A stretch of 36,857 bases of DNA from Planctomycetota bacterium (GTDB lineage Bacteria > Planctomycetota > Planctomycetia > Gemmatales > Gemmataceae), in assembly GCA_016872605.1 (NCBI GenBank), contig VGZI01000042.1:1-36857 (forward strand). Reading direction: 5' to 3'. A program made the translations under genes and the position numbers. Below, piece by piece: positions 7,054 to 35,843 of the stretch (position 1 is the first letter of the stretch; the number at the start of each line of letters is the position of its first letter). Under the pieces are notes generated by a model. The model made no database searches. It saw nothing but the letters and a program-made list of their open reading frames with translations, and was not told the origin of the DNA.

Positions 7054-7229
7054 TTCCGCGGCGGGTGCACGACATAGTTTGCAAACGGCACAGGAGGGCG
7101 AGGCTCCTGCCGAGCCGCGAGCCCGCAAATAATCTGAGTTGACATTACGATGCTGACGCTTCCGGCTCGGCAGGAGCCTCGCCTTCCCAAAAGGGGCCGC
7201 GCAGACCGTGTTGTGCACCCTTCCGCGGC
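7054..7229. other. 9-bp target-site duplication flanking mobile element copy A
   Basis: TTCCGCGGC occurs at 7054-7062 and again at 7221-7229, exactly abutting both ends of the 158-bp element at 7063-7220. This is the signature of transposition with a 9-bp staggered cut. Confidence 0.9.
7063..7220 (+). mobile_element. MITE-like non-autonomous element, copy A (158 bp)
   Basis: The element begins GGGTGCAC and ends GTGCACCC. Imperfect inverted repeats continue inward and then recur as a strong internal pair (GGCGAGGCTCCTGCCGAGCC near 7098 and its complement near 7163). It encodes no protein. Copy B at 19488-19645 is the same length in inverted orientation and differs at only about five positions. 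Copy C at 33612-33670 is an internally deleted form. It lies between the sensor-kinase start and the DksA-like gene's terminator. Mobilisation by an unlinked transposase is inferred, and the transposase family cannot be named from the ends alone. Confidence 0.9.
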
Positions 7230-7335: not shown

Positions 7336-7800
7336 CTACTTCGACAAATCCATCTCAAGCTGAGACAGGTCGACGTCGCGGGGCTCTTTCATTCGGGCTT
7401 CCGAATCGGACAGGTTTTCCCAGTCGACCCCGCGCGCGTTTCCATCCCAGTGTCCATAGTTCTCCATGTCGCGCTGGCACTGAATGCAGGTTGTGCTGAA
7501 AGGCAATGCGTTGAGGCGGGCCACCGGAATCTTCTTCTGGCAATTTTCGCACATGCCATAGGTGCCTTGCTTGAGTCGATGAAGGGCGCGCTCAATCTGC
7601 ATGAGTTCGCGTGCTTCGATCTCGGCAAGCTGCGACGAAACGTCTCCGCCAGACGACTCGAAGGCTTGATCGGCTTCGTCCCCTGTGTCGCCCGCATTCT
7701 GCCGTAGGTCCTTCAGGTCGCCACCGAGCCGTCGAAGGAGCGTGTCGCGCCGCTCTACGAGTGCTTTATGGAGATGAACTAGAGCGTCTTTTCGTGCCAT
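7336..7800 (-). CDS. DksA/TraR C4-type zinc-finger protein
   Basis: The product has 154 residues, about the length of DksA. A helical N-terminal half contains the acidic tip region (GDTGDEADQAF) that in DksA reaches into the RNA polymerase secondary channel. It is followed by QLAEIEARELMQIERALHRL and a C-terminal four-cysteine zinc finger (CENC, 17 residues, CIQC). The family modulates RNA polymerase, in proteobacteria together with ppGpp. In planctomycetes that role is an inference. The start at 7800 has a good AAAGGTGG ribosome-binding sequence. The gene is monocistronic, with its own terminator and a long AT-rich upstream region. Confidence 0.9.
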   Translation of the reverse strand: MARKDALVHLHKALVERRDTLLRRLGGDLKDLRQNAGDTGDEADQAFESSGGDVSSQLAEIEARELMQIERALHRLKQGTYGMCENCQKKIPVARLNALPFSTTCIQCQRDMENYGHWDGNARGVDWENLSDSEARMKEPRDVDLSQLEMDLSK

Positions 7801-11771: not shown

Positions 11772-11828
11772 CCGCTTGCGGCTTCGCGCTCGCACCGGGG
11801 CGCCCCGCGAGCGCGAAGCCGCAAGCGG
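11772..11828. repeat. REP-like palindrome (CCGCTTGCGG family), convergent-gene hairpin
   Basis: A perfect inverted repeat of two 22-nt arms (11772-11793 and 11807-11828) around a 13-nt loop that itself contains GGGGCGCCCC. It starts 1 nt after the peptidase-barrel stop and ends 7 nt before the stop of the convergent gene at 11836, so it can act as a bidirectional terminator. A near-identical copy is at 23372-23429. Copies with the same outer core flank the RAYT-like gene. Confidence 0.9.
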
Positions 11829-11835
11829 CGCTGCC

Positions 11836-12950: not shown

Positions 12951-13070
12951 GAGAATAGTGCGATAACGAAAAGGAGGTCGACCCGTTGAAGTAGTGTCGC
13001 GCTCCTTGTTTAGCGCCCGGCGGGCGCGACGGGAACGCCGATCGTGTTGGCTTGGAATCGGAGAGAAGAG

Positions 13071-15565: not shown

Positions 15566-15613
15566 GTTTACGTTTAGCCCTCGCACAGCGCCACCCGAGC
15601 GCTAAACGTAAAC
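15566..15613. repeat. Hairpin repeat (CGTTTAGCGC family)
   Basis: GTTTACGTTTAGCCCTCG pairs with CGAGCGCTAAACGTAAAC with one mismatch. It begins 12 nt after the stop of the surface-protein gene. A related hairpin at 35802-35839 lies between convergent htrA-like and queC genes. Confidence 0.8.
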
Positions 15614-19478: not shown

Positions 19479-19654
19479 GACAAAGGGGGGTGCACGACAC
19501 GGTCTGCGCGGCCCCTTTTGGGAGGGCGAGGCTCCTGCCGAGCCGGAAGCGTCAGCATCGTAATGTCAACTCAGATTATTTGCGTGCTCGCGGCTCGGCA
19601 GGAGCCTCGCCCTCCCGTGCCGTTTGCAAACCATGTCGTGCACCCGACAAAGGG
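19479..19654. other. 9-bp target-site duplication flanking mobile element copy B
   Basis: GACAAAGGG occurs at 19479-19487 and again at 19646-19654, immediately outside the ends of the element at 19488-19645. Confidence 0.9.
19488..19645 (-). mobile_element. MITE-like non-autonomous element, copy B (158 bp, inverted relative to copy A)
   Basis: It has the same length and GGGTGCAC...GTGCACCC ends as copy A. Reverse-complemented, it differs from copy A at about five of 158 positions. It sits 25 bp after the WD40 gene stop. It has no coding capacity. Near-identity with copy A and intact target duplication point to fairly recent activity. Confidence 0.9.
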
Positions 19655-19817: not shown

Positions 19818-21623
19818 ATGCGAAGCCTCTCTTTTCTTCTCATCTTGGTTGTTTCAGGTTCGGCCTTAACGCAGCCGCCGCTGCCCACGCCCGGCAATCG
19901 GCTCGCCTACCTGGGCGACCTCGATCCCTATTACCCGCACGCCAAGTTTCCGAAGTTCATCACGCCGCAGTGGGTGGGCGAACGCGATGTGGACGCCGTC
20001 GTTATCCTCGCCATCGACGACATGCGCGATCCCAAGAAGTACGAGACGTTCTTGCGGCCGATTCTCAATCGGCTCAAGAAGATCGATGGCCGGGCGCCGG
20101 TGAGCATCATGACGTGCGATGTCGAGCCGAAGGACGCCCAGGTTCAAGCGTGGCTCAAGGAAGGGCTGAGCATCGAGGTGCACACGGTCGATCATCCTTG
20201 CCCGTACTTCAAACCGGGCTTCGAGAAGGCCAAGGATACGTACGACCGCTGCGTCGATCGCATGAATGAGATCGCCGAGAATTACCCGGTGGCGTTTCGC
20301 ATGCCGTGCTGCGATTCGCTGAACACGCCCAGCCCGCGACATTGGGCGGAGATCTTCAATAAAACCACCGCCAAGGGCAATTTTCTCACGCTCGATTCGT
20401 CAGCCTTTCAAGTGTTCACGTCGGCCGACCCGGAGTTGCCAAGGGAGTTGGTGCTCGACGACGGCAAGGAACGCTTCTACAAGTACTTGCCGATGGATCG
20501 CTCGTTTGTCAATTGGATAGAGAATTATCCGTATCCCTACGTGATCGGCCGGTATTGCTGGCAGTTCCCGTGCATGACGCCTAGCGATTGGCAGGCCCAG
20601 CATCTGCACAAGCCGAACAATCCGCTCACCGTGCGCGACTGGAAGGCGGCGCTCGATTGCTCCGTCATCAAGAAGGGTGTCTTCAACATGGTCTTCCATC
20701 CGCACGGATGGATCAAGGCCGAACAGGTGGTCGACTTCATCGACTACGCCGTCGCCAAGCATGGCAAGAAAGTCAAGTTCCTCACCTTCAAGGAGGCCCA
20801 TGACCGCTTGCGAAAAACCGTCCTTGCCCGCGGACAGTGGCGCGGCGCCGCCAACAACGTCTTCCTGCTCGATGTCAACAACGACGGCTACATCGACATC
20901 GTCGACCTAAGGCCGCAGTTCAACAAGACGTATCTGTGGAATCCCGAGTCGTCGCACTGGCGCATCGTCAAGATGCCGGAGCACTCGCTGGGCAACATCT
21001 TTGTCGACAGCGAGTACGCGTTCGGGGTCTTGCAGAAAAATGGCTTCGCATCGCTGGCTTATCGGCATCAGAGTTTGCCGATGAGCTCCGAGGGTTTTAC
21101 CGATCAAGGCGTGCTGCACTTCGACGGCGAAAAGTGGTTGGCCGACAAGGCGCTGCGCAGCACCTTTCGCGATACGCAGGCGGGCAAGCACGTGCTGTTC
21201 CACCGCTTCCTCGACCTCGATGGCGACGGCCTATGCGAAGTCGTTGCGAACAACGGCAAAGTCTATCGCCACGAGTCCGGGAAGGACTGGCAGCCGTTGC
21301 CTTTCGCGGTTCCCGGAGGCGAGGGCACGCTGCAAAACGGCATGCGCTTTCTCGACCTCGACGGCGACGCCAAACTCGACATCGTCCACTCTAACGAGCG
21401 CGAGTTCGGCATCTACCGGTTCAGCGATATAAAGAAAGGCTGGACGAAAATCCGCGCCGGCAAAGCGCAGGATAAGAACGCCTTGCCACCGATCGTTCGC
21501 AACGGAACCAACAACGGCTGCTGGGCCCACTCCGGCCATCTCTGGTGGGCCAACGAGGACACGCACTTACTAAAGAACCACGTCGATCGGCGATCTTACA
21601 AGGAACTGCTGAAAAAAGAGTAA
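19818..21623 (+). CDS. Exported polysaccharide-deacetylase-like (CE4/NodB fold) protein with FG-GAP/VCBS repeats
   Basis: The product has 601 residues. A signal peptide (MRSLSFLLILVVSGSALTQ) begins at the ATG at 19818, preceded by GAGGA. Residues 60-330 read as a NodB-type deacetylase: AIDDMRD supplies Asp67/Asp68 (general base and metal), EVHTVDHP gives the metal pair His122/His126, FRMPCC matches the RxPxG strand, and FHPHGW at 293-298 occupies the last catalytic-His motif. Residues 345-560 hold three FG-GAP/VCBS-like blades with calcium-type loops (DVNNDGYIDIV, DLDGDGLCEVV, DLDGDAKLDIV). The family removes N- or O-acetyl groups from polysaccharides; the substrate here is unknown. The RMPCC variant and the fused propeller are unusual. 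It is monocistronic. Confidence 0.82.
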   Translation: MRSLSFLLILVVSGSALTQPPLPTPGNRLAYLGDLDPYYPHAKFPKFITPQWVGERDVDAVVILAIDDMRDPKKYETFLRPILNRLKKIDGRAPVSIMTCDVEPKDAQVQAWLKEGLSIEVHTVDHPCPYFKPGFEKAKDTYDRCVDRMNEIAENYPVAFRMPCCDSLNTPSPRHWAEIFNKTTAKGNFLTLDSSAFQVFTSADPELPRELVLDDGKERFYKYLPMDRSFVNWIENYPYPYVIGRYCWQFPCMTPSDWQAQHLHKPNNPLTVRDWKAALDCSVIKKGVFNMVFHPHGWIKAEQVVDFIDYAVAKHGKKVKFLTFKEAHDRLRKTVLARGQWRGAANNVFLLDVNNDGYIDIVDLRPQFNKTYLWNPESSHWRIVKMPEHSLGNIFVDSEYAFGVLQKNGFASLAYRHQSLPMSSEGFTDQGVLHFDGEKWLADKALRSTFRDTQAGKHVLFHRFLDLDGDGLCEVVANNGKVYRHESGKDWQPLPFAVPGGEGTLQNGMRFLDLDGDAKLDIVHSNEREFGIYRFSDIKKGWTKIRAGKAQDKNALPPIVRNGTNNGCWAHSGHLWWANEDTHLLKNHVDRRSYKELLKKE

Positions 21624-23371: not shown

Positions 23372-23429
23372 TGCCGCTTGCGGCTTTGCGTTCGCATGGC
23401 GCCCTGCGAACGCGAAGCCGCAAGCGGCA
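23372..23429. repeat. REP-like palindrome (CCGCTTGCGG family)
   Basis: Two 25-nt arms (23372-23396 and 23405-23429) are complementary with one mismatch, around an 8-nt loop. It is nearly the same sequence as 11772-11828. Here it separates two codirectional genes, ending 15 nt before the next start codon and just ahead of its AGGAG site. Confidence 0.88.
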
Positions 23430-24901: not shown

Positions 24902-24974
24902 GGACAAGCTGCCAGCTTGTCCCCTTGGCACTGGGGATGCCGCACAAATGGGACAAACTGGCAGCTTGTCCTAC
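24898..24974. repeat. GTAG...CTAC double-hairpin repeat between the tandem HTH paralogues
   Basis: GTAGGGACAAGCTGCCAGCT begins at 24898 and GGCAGCTTGTCCTAC ends at 24974. The outer arms are inverted copies of each other, and each arm also contains an AGCTG/CAGCT self-complementary core. It is related to 18033-18090. It overlaps the stop codon of the first paralogue and ends 10 nt before the start of the second. Confidence 0.8.
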
Positions 24975-25598: not shown

Positions 25599-25653
25599 GC
25601 CGCTTGCGGCGTAGCAAAACCGGCGTCCCTGGTTTTGCTACGCCGCAAGCGGC
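25599..25653. repeat. REP-like palindrome at the 3' end of the RAYT-like gene
   Basis: GCCGCTTGCGGC, GTAGCAAAACC, an 11-nt loop, then the complementary GGTTTTGCTAC and GCCGCAAGCGGC. The inner hairpin starts GTAG (25611) and ends CTAC (25641). It overlaps the transposase stop codon by one base. Confidence 0.9.
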
Positions 25654-26306
25654 TATTCGGGGTACATTCCGAGTTCGCGCCGTCGTTTCGCGTACGGGGA
25701 ATTTGGGCTGTGTCCTTCGTGGAGCGGCCAATTGTCGTAGGGTTTGATGAAGGGCCATGCTTGTTTGGGCGACCCGATCTTCTCAGGATTTCGTTCGATG
25801 TAGGGGATAGTACGGCGAATTTCCTTGGGATGATCGAGAAACACCGACCAACCGTCGCCGCCGGTCCAGGTCGGATGATCGCCGTCACGGAAGCCGGCGG
25901 CGCAGACGCGCAGGCGGCTGGCGTCCTTGAGTTTTTTCATTATTTCTTCGGCGGCGTGCGTGTGTTTGCGGATCAAAATGTGGACGTGATCCGGCATGAC
26001 GGCGCATGCGTAACACGTGTATCGCTTTTCTTCGACGACTTGACCGAAGGCTTCGCCGATCGACGCACGTGCGGGCTCATCGAATGTCAACAATGGGAAC
26101 TTCAAGACGGGGGCAGCGCGTTCGTAGAATTCGCGCACAACTTTGCCCGACGGCTGCACCCTTTTTCGGCCATAGTGCAGGTCGCCCAACTCGGCGATGA
26201 CGTCGCTGGCGACTTGCTCGGAGCCGCTGCCGCGCGGGTCGTTGGGGAGCCACCAGCCATAGACGGTCCAGATCAGGTGATACGCAATGACGATCGGATG
26301 CGCCAT
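25653..26306 (-). CDS. RAYT-like (REP-associated / IS200-type Y1) transposase
   Basis: The product has 217 residues from the ATG at 26306. The N-terminus (IAYHLIWTVYGWWLPNDPRG) and the HUH metal-binding motif in YACAVMPDHVHILIRKH are typical of Y1_Tnp single-strand transposases. The C-terminal part reads IPYIERNPEK and WPFIKPYDNWPLHEG, as in many planctomycete copies. The helix that should carry the nucleophilic tyrosine reads IMKKLKDASRLRV, without a Tyr at the usual place, so catalysis may use another Tyr or be lost. REP-like palindromes lie at both ends (25599-25653 and 26324-26391), the arrangement of REP-RAYT loci. There are no classical IS ends with insertion-sequence structure, which fits a single-copy domesticated gene. 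Confidence 0.85.
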   Translation of the reverse strand: MAHPIVIAYHLIWTVYGWWLPNDPRGSGSEQVASDVIAELGDLHYGRKRVQPSGKVVREFYERAAPVLKFPLLTFDEPARASIGEAFGQVVEEKRYTCYACAVMPDHVHILIRKHTHAAEEIMKKLKDASRLRVCAAGFRDGDHPTWTGGDGWSVFLDHPKEIRRTIPYIERNPEKIGSPKQAWPFIKPYDNWPLHEGHSPNSPYAKRRRELGMYPE

Positions 26307-26323
26307 TGTGCGATCTCCCAATT

Positions 26324-26391
26324 GCCGCTTGCGGTGTAGCAAAGGCATCTGCTACGCCGCGAGCGGCGGTTTTTGCCACGCCGCAAGCGGC
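26324..26391. repeat. REP-like palindrome cluster upstream of the RAYT-like gene
   Basis: GCCGCTTGCGGTGTAGCA pairs with TGCTACGCCGCGAGCGGC (26324-26368; GTAG at 26336, CTAC at 26352-26355). A third arm, GCCACGCCGCAAGCGGC, follows to 26391. It fills the gap between the transposase start and the stop of the oxidoreductase gene at 26396, and may also end that transcript. Confidence 0.88.
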
Positions 26392-26395
26392 GTTT

Positions 26396-28036
26396 CTAGC
26401 GCAGCCCCGCCAATTCTTGCAGCAAGTGCCAATTCTCCAGGCGATCCTGCTTGGCGTGTAGCAAGAGTTGCGACGGATTGCCGTCCTTGTCGAAGTGTTT
26501 GGCGAATCGGCCCTCGCTGCGAGCGAAGTCGATGAAGGTGACTTCCTCGTTGGTCTTGGGATTCTTGAACCAATCCTCCTTGACCGCGGGATTGCCTTGC
26601 AGCGACAGCTTTTCCTTGACCCTGTCGCCCTTGCGGGGATCGAAGATCAGAAGCGGGAACGCACGACTATCGACGGCGAGGCGTGCTTGTTCGCCGGCCA
26701 TGTTGTCGGCGACGCCATGTTCGGGCTGGCAGGTCGTGTAGCAGACAACCATCGCTGGGCCGTCGAACTCGAGGGCGCCAAGAACCGCCTTGTAGAAATG
26801 GTTGACGTGAGCGCACGTGGTTTGTGCGACATACGTGCGCGGGTGCATCATAGCGATCTGGGCGATTTCCTTGCGGCGTTCTTGCTTGCCGCCGAACGCG
26901 TTGCCGTGCACGCTCATCTTGGTGTTTTGGCCTGTGTAGGTCGAAGTCGAGGCCTGGCCGCCCGTGTTGGAATAAACCTGTGTGTCAAGCACGAAGACTT
27001 TGATGTTGTGGCCGGACGCAAACATGCGGCTCAGGGCCTGGAAGCCGATGTCGAACATGGCGCCGTCGCCGCCGATGCACCAGATCGGTTTGCCCTGCCA
27101 GCCCATTTGATCCCAACGCATGCGGACGCCGATGGCGTCGGCCGGCGCGTTTTCGAAGAGCGAGTTGGTCCACGGCACGAGGTACGGATTGTACGGATAC
27201 GTCGAGGTATACACCGTGTTGCAGCCGGTGGCGGCGACGATGGCCCACTGATCGCCATACTTGGCGCCGGTGGCGGCGCACATCATGCGAAGAGCAGTTC
27301 CTTCGCCGCAACCGGCACACGAACCGGCGCCGCCAACATACAGATGCGTCTTTTCCTTGAGCATCATGTCGATGAGCAGGTTGTCGTTGATGTACTTGTC
27401 GTTGGATGGCCCGATGTTCTTGAAGTAACGATGCGCCTTGCGCGACCAGGTCATGACGTCGTCATTTTTCTGAATCATCTTCAGCGCGTCATCGTCGCAA
27501 ACGGTCACGCACTCGGCGCAGCCCTTGCATTTGGACGGATCGATGATGATGTTGAACATGCCGCCGTCGCCGAGCTTCTTCTTGAATCCGTCATAGTACT
27601 TCTTGGTGCGCGACCATTCCCTGGAGAAGCGTTCGCGGTCGGCTTCGGGGATTGTCTTGAGCTTCTCGTTCCATTCGGTCTCGGACAGCACTTTGCCGAG
27701 GATGGCGGTGTCGGGGCACTCGGTGACGCAGTCCATGCAGCCGGTGCAGTGCGCGGGAATGTACTCAGGGATTTCAGGCGCGATGTTGCTGAAGTCGCGC
27801 AACGTCGCGGTTCCGGCCGGGACCAGCGAACGAGCCGTGGACAGGTCGGCGGGAAGATCGCGTTCGCCCCAGCCTTCTTCGTAGCCGCGAATGATGCGTT
27901 CGTTAAAGTCGTTCACATCGAGCACGGGGAGATTGATCAGCTTGTAACCTGAATCGACCAGCGTGCCGTAGCTGTTGTTGTTGTACGGGTCGCGTTCGGT
28001 GGCCTCGTTCATCGACGAGGCAGCGGTGGTGGACAT
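26396..28036 (-). CDS. Pyruvate:ferredoxin oxidoreductase, ferredoxin plus TPP-binding subunit (delta-beta)
   Basis: The product has 546 residues from the ATG at 28036, with AGGAG upstream; two TTG/ATG alternatives lie within 3 nt. The N-terminal third carries two 4Fe-4S motifs (CTGCMDCVTECPD and CKGCAECVTVCDDD). The rest is the thiamine-diphosphate half: CAGCGEGTALRM binds the third cluster/TPP region, IGGDGAMFDIGFQAL is the GDG-type TPP motif, and VYSNTGGQASTSTYTGQ is the diagnostic PFOR stretch. It corresponds to domains V-VI of single-chain PFOR (NifJ, about 1170 residues), so here the enzyme is split. It converts pyruvate and CoA to acetyl-CoA and CO2 with reduction of ferredoxin. It lies 61 bp downstream of the alpha-gamma gene in one operon. 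Confidence 0.93.
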   Translation of the reverse strand: MSTTAASSMNEATERDPYNNNSYGTLVDSGYKLINLPVLDVNDFNERIIRGYEEGWGERDLPADLSTARSLVPAGTATLRDFSNIAPEIPEYIPAHCTGCMDCVTECPDTAILGKVLSETEWNEKLKTIPEADRERFSREWSRTKKYYDGFKKKLGDGGMFNIIIDPSKCKGCAECVTVCDDDALKMIQKNDDVMTWSRKAHRYFKNIGPSNDKYINDNLLIDMMLKEKTHLYVGGAGSCAGCGEGTALRMMCAATGAKYGDQWAIVAATGCNTVYTSTYPYNPYLVPWTNSLFENAPADAIGVRMRWDQMGWQGKPIWCIGGDGAMFDIGFQALSRMFASGHNIKVFVLDTQVYSNTGGQASTSTYTGQNTKMSVHGNAFGGKQERRKEIAQIAMMHPRTYVAQTTCAHVNHFYKAVLGALEFDGPAMVVCYTTCQPEHGVADNMAGEQARLAVDSRAFPLLIFDPRKGDRVKEKLSLQGNPAVKEDWFKNPKTNEEVTFIDFARSEGRFAKHFDKDGNPSQLLLHAKQDRLENWHLLQELAGLR

Positions 28037-31902: not shown

Positions 31903-33398
31903 GCGAGCTGCTGAGTTCCACGCCGTCCCAGGGCGTCGTCGCTCATCGCCTTGTCCTTCTCCTTGTCCTTCTCCTTGTCCTTCTCCTTGTCCTTCTCCTT
32001 GTCCTTCTCCTTGTCCTCTTTGTTGTCCGGGTCTTTTTTCTTTTCTTCCATCGGCGGCGGCTTCTTTTCTTCTTTGGGCTTGGGAGGCGCTACGCCGGTG
32101 ACCTTCAACGCCAAGGGTCGCACCAGGTCGCGGTTTCTCAGGCAAAGGATCTGGCCGTCGTGCGCAGCGAGATAAACGCGGTCGGTCCATTCGTTCGGCA
32201 ACGTGAGCATCCAGTCGGCCATGTCGAGCTTGGCAAGCGTGGTGCCGCGCTCGGCGTCGAGAACGAAGAACTTGCCGATGTTGTCGAGGGCATAAACGTA
32301 TTTGAGGTTGGCTGCGAGAAAACGTGTAGCGTCGCGGTTCGTCCAGCGTTCACGGCCGGTCTCGCGGTCGAGTCGGCGCAGGCCGATGCGGTCGGGCGCA
32401 ATGTAGACGTCGCGGTCGTTGACGTAGGGCTGCATTCGCACCGGGGCGCCGGAAACATGCCGCCATTTGATCGTGCCGCCAAGCAGACTCACGGCGTAAA
32501 CATTGGAGTCATCCGAGGCGATGAAAGCGGTAGCGAGATGTTGTCCTGGAGCAGCCGGGGCCTGGCCAATTGTCTTGAACTCGAACTTTTCGATGCGTTG
32601 CCCTCTCTCGAACCGCGTGATCGACGACAACGTTCCGTCGTTGGCCAGGAGCCCGAGAAAATCGTCGGCGATGAGCGGCGACGATGTCATGATCTTGTCC
32701 GCGAGCTTGTAGCCCCAGTAGAAGTCGGGCTGCGGCGAATCCGGTCCGTCATCGTCATCGGGAAGATCCTTTTCCTTTGGACCGCCTTTTTTTTCTTCGC
32801 GGCCTTTTGCCTTGCGCAGCTCACGGGCGCGCTTGATGCGGTCGTGTTCAGCGAAATCGGGCATCAGAATCGAATGCACGCGGTCGCCCATCGGCAGATA
32901 CAGGAAATCCTCGTCGGCGACAGGCACCGATTGCGGAGCGAATTGAAGCTCGTAACCAAACGAAAACAGCTTGGTCGCGCGATCGTAGGTGTAGACGCGT
33001 TGGGAGCCGTCCTGGCGATTGAGGACGTGCAGCATGTTGCGCCGTGTGACGTAGATGCTGTGCGAGCAGAACGCGGCCGCCTGGACCGACCAGAAGGGGA
33101 CGCCGACGTCGGTCTTCCAGATCATGTCGCCGCGGTTGGCGTCGAAAAGGTAGACGGAGCCCTTAAACGTCTGCACAACGATCTGGGTCGGCGTACCGGG
33201 AATGATCTGAAAACTGGCGATACCGTCACGATTCCCTTCGACGCGCACGCGAGTCGTCCATGCGACGGTCAAATTCATGCGGTCCAGCGAATCGCGCGGC
33301 GGCATCTTGGGACTGGTGTAAACCTTGTACGGCGCTTGTGCCGACGCCGGCGCCACCCACGTGCCCAGGAGTGTGATGGCCAACAGCCCGAGTCTCAT
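31821..33398 (-). CDS. Exported PQQ-like beta-propeller protein with a Lys/Glu/Asp repeat tail
   Basis: The product has 525 residues. A signal peptide (MRLGLLAITLLGTWVAPASA, then QAPYKVY) starts at the ATG at 33398, with a GAGGG upstream. Propeller blades of the PQQ type include VYLFDANRGDMIWKTDVGVP, LHVLNRQDGSQRVYTYD, VSLLGGTIKWRHVSG, LRRLDRETGRERWTNRD and FFVLDAERGTTLAKLDM. A charged insert (REEKKGGPKEKDLPDDDDG) interrupts the propeller. After about residue 440 comes a proline/lysine linker and a KEKD tandem repeat encoded by a 12-bp DNA repeat. A final 41 residues after the repeat have odd composition, and the stop overlaps the ATG of the permease as ATGA. PQQ-like propellers without cofactor are assembly or scaffold proteins; the partner is unknown. 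Confidence 0.85.
   Translation of the reverse strand: MRLGLLAITLLGTWVAPASAQAPYKVYTSPKMPPRDSLDRMNLTVAWTTRVRVEGNRDGIASFQIIPGTPTQIVVQTFKGSVYLFDANRGDMIWKTDVGVPFWSVQAAAFCSHSIYVTRRNMLHVLNRQDGSQRVYTYDRATKLFSFGYELQFAPQSVPVADEDFLYLPMGDRVHSILMPDFAEHDRIKRARELRKAKGREEKKGGPKEKDLPDDDDGPDSPQPDFYWGYKLADKIMTSSPLIADDFLGLLANDGTLSSITRFERGQRIEKFEFKTIGQAPAAPGQHLATAFIASDDSNVYAVSLLGGTIKWRHVSGAPVRMQPYVNDRDVYIAPDRIGLRRLDRETGRERWTNRDATRFLAANLKYVYALDNIGKFFVLDAERGTTLAKLDMADWMLTLPNEWTDRVYLAAHDGQILCLRNRDLVRPLALKVTGVAPPKPKEEKKPPPMEEKKKDPDNKEDKEKDKEKDKEKDKEKDKEKDKAMSDDALGRRGTQQLAWNRTPSIHARAITTGATDHRQLRTLR
31949..32018. repeat. 12-bp tandem repeat in the PQQ-like gene
   Basis: CCTTGTCCTTCT units (coding strand AGAAGGACAAGG) repeat about five and a half times with almost no change. 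The unit is a multiple of three, so gain or loss of units changes the length of the KEKD tail but not the frame. Confidence 0.85.
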
Positions 33399-33602: not shown

Positions 33603-33679
33603 TCGCAGACCGGGTGCACGACATGGTTTGCAAACGGCACGGGAGGGCACGCAGACCATGTCGTACACCCTCGCAGACC
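33603..33679. other. 9-bp target-site duplication flanking mobile element copy C
   Basis: TCGCAGACC occurs at 33603-33611 and again at 33671-33679, immediately outside the element ends at 33612 and 33670. Confidence 0.88.
33612..33670 (+). mobile_element. MITE-like element, copy C: internally deleted 59-bp form
   Basis: The left 37 bp match copies A and B (GGGTGCACGACATGG and onward). The right 22 bp match their right end with about three changes (ending GTACACCC). About 99 bp of the interior are missing. It has its own 9-bp target duplication, so the ends were still used as transposon ends, either before or after the deletion. Confidence 0.85.
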
Positions 33680-35791: not shown

Positions 35792-35801
35792 ATCCTGTTC
35801 A

Positions 35802-35839
35802 CGTTTAGCGCTTGCATGGCGCCATGCGGGCGCTAAACG
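35802..35839. terminator. Bidirectional hairpin between convergent genes (CGTTTAGCGC family)
   Basis: Two 19-nt arms (35802-35820 and 35821-35839) with two mismatches lie between the HtrA-type stop (35791) and the queC stop (35844). It is related to 15566-15613. Termination in both directions is inferred from position. Confidence 0.75.
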
Positions 35840-35843
35840 AAAT

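Follow-up and report, generated by a model that had tools for sequence, protein, structure and literature searches.

The DNA analyzed here (the window) is a stretch of 36,857 nt that makes up contig 42 of a 6.70-Mb draft assembly (372 contigs, 92.8% complete) of a planctomycete of the family Gemmataceae, hereafter the source genome. The window contains three copies of a short repeated element, each flanked by a perfect 9-bp target duplication. Copies A (7063..7220, + strand) and B (19488..19645, − strand) are both 158 bp long, lie in opposite orientations, are about 97% alike, and belong to subfamily 1 (see below); copy C (33612..33670, + strand) has 59 bp. The duplicated targets are TTCCGCGGC for copy A (7054..7062 and 7221..7229), GACAAAGGG for copy B (19479..19487 and 19646..19654), and TCGCAGACC for copy C (33603..33611 and 33671..33679). 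The coordinates of all three copies, the exact repetition of these flanks on either side, and the equal length and opposite orientation of copies A and B had been described in an earlier note on this DNA and were all confirmed. By the reading frames, each copy is intergenic, with a PAS/histidine-kinase gene and a dksA/traR-like gene on either side of copy A, a WD40 gene and a polysaccharide-deacetylase/FG-GAP gene around copy B, and a PQQ-propeller gene and a TPR gene around copy C.

The terminal inverted repeats of copy A are located at 7063..7082 (+) and 7201..7220 (−). Its interior holds a putatively captured palindrome, with a left arm similar to GGGAGGGCGAGGCTCCTGCCGAGCC at 7092..7116 (+) and a right arm at 7164..7188 (−); the arms in copy B are at 19520..19544 (+) and 19592..19616 (−). 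When folded as DNA, the 158-bp strand reaches −50.4 kcal/mol, compared with a mean of −28.2 kcal/mol for shuffled sequences (z = −7.9). Common ends and internal inverted repeats had both been attributed to the three copies. The ends are indeed present in all three, but the internal inverted repeat is found in copies A and B and is gone from copy C, which has kept both ends and 8 nt of one arm (GGGAGGGC, 33641..33648, +). At the junction of copy C, where GGGAGGGC meets ACGCAGACC, the left arm is represented by its first 8 nt, and the right arm is missing together with the adjoining subterminal bases. Because of these retained arm nucleotides and the missing right subterminal part, copy C is best read as a shell that lost its palindrome by deletion and not as an ancestral empty shell. 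No second example of this form was found among the 54 copies collected from the source genome.

Several other repeats occur in the window. A Y1_Tnp gene (IS200-like, perhaps a RAYT) at 25653–26345 (−) has GTAG-containing GCCGCTTGCGGCGTAGCAAAA palindromes on both sides (25599–25653 and 26324–26396), and this arrangement is likely a planctomycete example of a classical RAYT accompanied by its REPs. The claim that the window holds no transposase was thus not strictly right; to our knowledge, the Y1_Tnp class makes no 9-bp duplications. Related hairpins (CCGCTTGCGGC...) are present at 11772–11829 and 23372–23429, and the former is also frequent in sister genomes (query positions approximately 7473–7530). 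A third palindromic repeat family (GTTTAGCGC...) occurs at 13008–13046, 15568–15613, and 35797–35842, an inverted repeat of the GGACAAGCTGCCAGCTTGTCC type at 24902–24971, and a 12-bp tandem repeat (TCTCCTTGTCCT) that overlaps long reading frames at 31922–32053.

BLAST (40 of 167 candidates scored) and end-pattern matches together identified at least 54 distinct two-ended copies in the source genome. This number was obtained after removal of five spurious pairings of 196–358 bp, in which chance partner ends lay beside real copies, and it leaves out copies that are cut by contig ends or have one unrecognized end (including C236). The true copy number must be higher than 54, given that the 15-base end pattern (up to three mismatches) has 454 matches in the source genome versus 169 for the control, and that only part of the BLAST candidates were scored. 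Most copies (46) are exactly 158 bp long; the others are 157 bp (three), 159 bp (two), and 156, 190, and 59 bp (one each). The terminal inverted repeats have a consensus of about 20 bp at both ends (GGGTGCACGACAyGGTyTGC). The two 9-mers that flank a copy are identical at all nine positions in 33 copies, at eight in 10, at seven in five, and at fewer in six, such that 43 of 54 copies have a duplication with at least eight matching positions. All 33 perfect duplications differ from one another, and when flanks from different perfect copies were mixed, the identity never exceeded 7/9, a level reached in 27 of 19,402 draws. The terminal repeats, the constant length of the target duplication, the large number of similar copies scattered over unrelated sites, and the lack of a transposase gene identify these elements as a real MITE family. 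The earlier note had identified them as MITEs that truly transposed and had called for a genome-wide count of copies and 9-bp flanks; the 54 copies, 33 with perfect duplications, bear out this identification. No match to the MITE was found in plasmid records. In viral contigs, two end-pattern matches were taken as chance after their reading frames were inspected by eye.

These copies fall into two subfamilies, which are 83.7% alike. Subfamily 1, which includes copies A and B, has 17 copies with a mean pairwise identity of 97.0% and a mean distance of 1.5% from the consensus; subfamily 2 has 36 copies (94.7% and 2.7%, respectively). The recent activity proposed from the near-identity of copies A and B agrees with the low divergence of subfamily 1, but it is not the whole story. 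Subfamily 2, with its 36 more diverged copies, and the imperfect duplications at 21 of 54 copies indicate older activity as well. An assembly or binning artefact is extremely improbable as an explanation of these patterns. Several of the 372 draft contigs end inside copies, and N-gapped apparent copies do exist in the related genome G112 (four of 43–58 bp and one of 127 bp). However, the 54 copies have differing flanks and are spread over many contigs, the window copies contain no N, and the same ends are found in genomes from other studies.

The insertion sites avoid long reading frames. After the sites were rejoined, frames of at least 200 aa spanned 15 of 49 sites, whereas among 845 control positions the share was 60% (Fisher p = 7e-5), by a crude ORF measure with controls that came from the same loci and are therefore not fully independent; five of the 54 copies without 400 bp of flank on one or both sides were left out. 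For empty sites in relatives, the left flank of copy A in the same-genus genome G002 runs through seven of the nine target bases and onward without the MITE (66% identity). Orthology in G002 does not extend to the right side, and the empty site of copy A is thus half shown. The corresponding comparison for copy B is uninformative, because orthologous sequence begins only at 19886.

Avoidance of long frames and a strong hairpin would also fit an element that is useful to the host, such as a two-way terminator or an mRNA stabilizer, and that is kept by selection at intergenic sites. Conservation of the arms points in the same direction to some extent. Between the consensuses of the two subfamilies, 22 of 158 positions differ, but all 50 arm positions are identical. 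Among the copies of exactly 158 bp (16 of subfamily 1 and 30 of subfamily 2), the change per site and copy in subfamily 1 is 0.5% in the arms versus 2.7% in the loop; in subfamily 2, it is 1.9% in the left arm, which is hardly slower than the loop (2.3%), and 0.5% in the right arm. The arms therefore seem to be under some constraint, acting either on the mobile element or on the host. Nevertheless, 18 of 22 arm-pair changes break the pair and no compensatory double change was found in the 46 copies compared, and this absence of covariation leaves no proof that pairing matters after insertion. Moreover, Rfam has no match in the window, avoidance of genes is what purifying selection on any insertion would produce, and the arms of young copies from one source would be similar anyway. 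We thus consider a host function improbable as the reason for the maintenance of these elements.

The MITE ends are not confined to the source genome. With up to one mismatch allowed, the 20-bp end has 115 matches in the source genome and is present in 19 of the 95 family genomes (source included), whereas the reversed control pattern has no match in any of the 95. Among named-genome records, seven matching stretches were found, five of which belong to G004 and G006; the others include Actinomycetota and Limnochordales. Relatives also contain insertion sequences of 1.7–1.9 kb that combine similar ends of about 20 bp and 9-bp duplications with ISKra4-type (prokaryotic Mutator-like) transposases. 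In G066, a single-contig genome of 9.0 Mb, one insertion sequence of 3017 bp combines MITE-type ends with a perfect 9-bp duplication; judged against a second copy, about 1.2 kb of it is an extra insertion. An uninterrupted copy of 1776 bp in the same genome is flanked by the perfect 9-bp duplication TTCGCAGAG, and most of it is spanned by an open stretch of 621 codons that starts before the left end. Across 18 loci with related transposases, both ends were called in 13, of which five have a perfect 9-bp duplication and eight do not; the end calling was loose (up to seven mismatches), and at one of these 13 loci (L177) an end is plainly wrong.

All nine transposase stretches scanned against NCBIfam, including three near-identical G066 copies, have NF033572 (ISKra4) as the best match (E = 1e-33 to 4e-44), with scores of 117–152 bits that are all below the curated cut-off of 205. 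Pfam gave no match for the two transposases scanned. The ISKra4 group is classified with the prokaryotic Mutator-like transposases (p-MULT 4) and has repeats of 18–39 bp, duplications of 8 or 9 bp, and members in Planctomycetes, according to excerpts of PMC3942029. The MITE, with ends of about 20 bp and 9-bp duplications, has these hallmarks. Based on the sequence comparisons, the candidate mover class is likely an ISKra4-type transposase, although the MITE subterminal sequence has no clear derivation from any full insertion sequence seen.

Relatives of this transposase are present in 28 of 95 genomes of the family (tblastn, E ≤ 1e-10). By the same search, none was found in the source assembly, which also lacks a match to NF033572 by profile search (E ≤ 0.001) and in which no long element with MITE ends was found. 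A pattern designed to exclude intact MITE ends had 23 matches in the source genome versus 15 for the control. None of these led to an insertion sequence; several are diverged MITE ends, and the only exact non-MITE match (C143:120) lies inside a Y1_Tnp match. Two contigs of the same-genus genome G002 hold pieces of an insertion sequence: on one, a transposase-like start (similarity judged by eye) comes after an end, and on the other, a transposase tail (tblastn E = 7e-17) terminates directly at an end. An autonomous partner with similar ends is thus present in relatives, and in pieces in G002, but absent from the searches of the source assembly. The earlier note had predicted a trans-acting enzyme encoded elsewhere, and this agrees with the gene-less 158-bp element, which is too short for any transposase gene, and with the ISKra4-like insertion sequences of similar ends in relatives; the full-length insertion sequence that it proposed to look for was recovered from relatives but not from the source assembly. 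The ISKra4-like class presumably moved the copies of the source genome, and its gene may have been lost from the lineage, may never have been resident for long, or may lie in an assembly gap. Because the enzyme class was found in relatives and not in this 92.8%-complete assembly of 372 contigs, present activity in the source strain is only putative.

The interior of the MITE has a distribution of its own. Element positions 30–126 consist of two 25-nt arms (GGGAGGGCGAGGCTCCTGCCGAGCC) in inverted orientation, separated by a 47-nt loop. When the MITE was searched against 58 other genomes (E ≤ 0.001; up to 14 candidates scored per genome), at least 10 had matches, and all matches listed outside the source genome fall within query positions 20–145 and do not reach the outer ends. 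A pattern that leaves out most MITE copies by design detected perfect arms in 13 of 95 genomes of the family (source included). The 12 arm-pattern matches in the source genome correspond to five MITE copies and seven free loci, namely five inverted pairs, one single arm, and one direct pair. At all 33 free-cargo loci (seven from the source and 26 from other genomes, a few of them overlapping), the 20-mers up to 80 nt away from an arm all differ from the MITE end at seven or more positions, whereas the closest 20-mers in two MITE controls have zero and one mismatches. The interior is therefore a separate REPIN-like palindrome that is dispersed without the shell in the source genome and in other genera. 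In the earlier note, it had not been recognized as a repeat in its own right. A RAYT as the mover of this cargo was considered and rejected: Y1_Tnp gave 45 matches in eight genomes, and the 30 loci read among them contain no arm with up to six mismatches and one arm-like word with seven. By eye, the arm GGGAGGGCGAGGCTCCTGCCGAGCC has no GTAG or CGTC tag. Given these two results, the palindrome is termed REPIN-like and not REPIN. Four arm strings were absent from open-access full text (subscription journals were outside the scope).

Some individual free loci have additional features. The single free arm in the source genome (L242, C15:12174-12200) may sit in a reading frame. If read in frame, the cargo repeat would give words such as GSAGASPS or EGEAPAEP, which we take to be of a kind found in planctomycete proteins. 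At L055 in G004, the cargo palindrome is nested within a 22-nt GAACACTAATCTCCACTAATCC inverted repeat. At L047, L056, and L064 in G057, which belongs to another family of the class, AGAGTCTG(TC) inverted repeats flank the cargo palindrome in two of the three loci; this signal is weak, with flanks of 8 and 10 nt versus a 10-nt chance-like match at the unrelated L049.

The location of cargo within the GAACACTAATCTCCACTAATCC inverted repeat at one G004 locus and within AGAGTCTG-type repeats at two of three G057 loci would fit a palindrome that invades palindromes. The MITE may then have come first, through plain internal deletion, with the REPIN-like repeat inserted later, the composite amplified, and the shell having no preference for palindromes. 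The occurrence of cargo arms singly, in direct order, and in inverted order is likewise consistent with this order of events. However, no shell was found that is empty and has a clean pre-insertion target, as the 59-bp copy is best read as a deletion; no RAYT mover was identified in the Y1_Tnp loci described above; and the G057 flanks hardly exceed the chance-like flank at L049. This order of events is quite plausible, though we would not expect it to be the correct one.

Sister genomes contain elements with the same ends and other cargo. G004 and G006 belong to the same genus as the source genome based on the kinship table. G004 has elements of 146–147 bp around a ACCACGGATT palindrome, a type also found in G006, and elements of 145 bp around a GTAGCCGC...CGCCAGAA palindrome; several elements in these two genomes have perfect 9-bp duplications. 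Judged from BLAST extents, the ACCACGGATT type has many interior-only matches in G003–G006, and the GTAGCCGC...CGCCAGAA type has about 20 interior-only places in G004, of which one locus was read. In G003 and G005, ACCACGGAT cargo is found between ends altered to a GGGTGCACGACAGCACTTGC-like form. G112 and G101 have elements of 188–191 bp with yet other interiors. Of 17 element rows outside the source genome, eight have perfect duplications; the 17 include one row without a right flank, one with N, and probably some chance pairings. Among the matches listed, no full-length match to the source MITE was found in the six other genomes of the genus. Three tiny elements of 43–47 bp in G112 were rejected as scaffolding artefacts due to N gaps inside them, as were copies of 58 and 127 bp with N gaps; these gapped copies (L207, L208, L213, L214, and L215) are a warning for MITE counts in drafts.

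As a MITE family, these elements have an ordinary mechanism; the unusual part is that the palindromic cargo differs between sister species inside the same shell. This may be explained by shells that repeatedly formed around or captured resident palindromes, either in a manner similar to that of Pack-MULEs or by template switching during gap repair at hairpins. Within one genus, three different dispersed palindromes, two of them in G004, occur in shells whose 20-bp ends are nearly identical and which share the 9-bp duplication. This argues for such a process, as do the further interiors in G112 and G101. Nonetheless, capture is putative and three cargo types are few. The ACCACGGAT cargo common to G003, G004, G005, and G006 may represent one inherited event, one of the G112/G101 interiors (188 bp) is not obviously palindromic, and free copies of these interiors are only putative. 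Repeated capture is accordingly a possible but doubtful account of the differing cargo.

Taken together, these findings make it highly probable that the elements are a non-autonomous MITE family of the ISKra4 / prokaryotic Mutator-like type with a captured REPIN-like palindrome. Under this interpretation, a DDE transposase from an ISKra4-like insertion sequence would bind the terminal inverted repeats of about 20 bp and excise or copy the element, and insertion at staggered cuts would generate the 9-bp duplication. The interior would be a captured REPIN-like palindrome, such that amplification of the shell would amplify the palindrome as well. An orphan MITE family is in this way tied to a likely transposase class, and three shell-and-cargo combinations exist within one bacterial genus. 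The origin of MITE interiors and the interplay between MITEs and REP-like repeats thereby become open to genome comparison and to a simple mobilization assay.

Several known systems resemble parts of this arrangement, as described in excerpts of the respective reports. ISKra4 / p-MULT 4 elements are similar in having ends of about 20 bp that start with G, 9-bp duplications, and a transposase family (NF033572) that those of the relatives match (PMC3942029), whereas the element here is gene-less and the relatives' transposases fall under the curated ISKra4 cut-off. Bacterial MITEs are comparable in size, ends, duplication, lack of coding sequence, and high copy number (PMC10969869), but here the palindromes found between the same ends are unrelated in sister species. 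QMITE2 of Coxiella is a MITE that contains a GTAG repetitive extragenic palindrome (PMC10969869); the palindrome here has no GTAG tag and is dispersed shell-free in other genera too. BrickBuilt of Porphyromonas gingivalis is a MITE around another kind of repeat, a minisatellite (PMC4596501), whereas the enclosed repeat here is an independently living palindrome and the cargo varies between sister species. REPINs and REP sequences share the two inverted short arms, the variable loop, and the dispersed distribution (PMC3733652), but the cargo here has 25-nt arms, no GTAG or CGTC tag, and no adjacent RAYT found. The excerpts of PMC3189936 contain nothing on capture of REPs. Open-access full text with ISKra4, MITE, and transposase yielded no title on such elements (subscription journals were outside the scope).

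A further comparison is with plants. Plant Pack-MULEs consist of a Mutator-superfamily shell with a foreign interior. Unlike these, the elements here are bacterial and tiny, their cargo is a palindromic repeat and not gene pieces, and capture is putative. It is conceivable, albeit unlikely, that they represent a bacterial counterpart of Pack-MULEs, in which ISKra4-like shells repeatedly take up resident palindromes as exchangeable cargo and spread them. If so, two selfish repeat systems would travel as one, with a hairpin nested in a hairpin.
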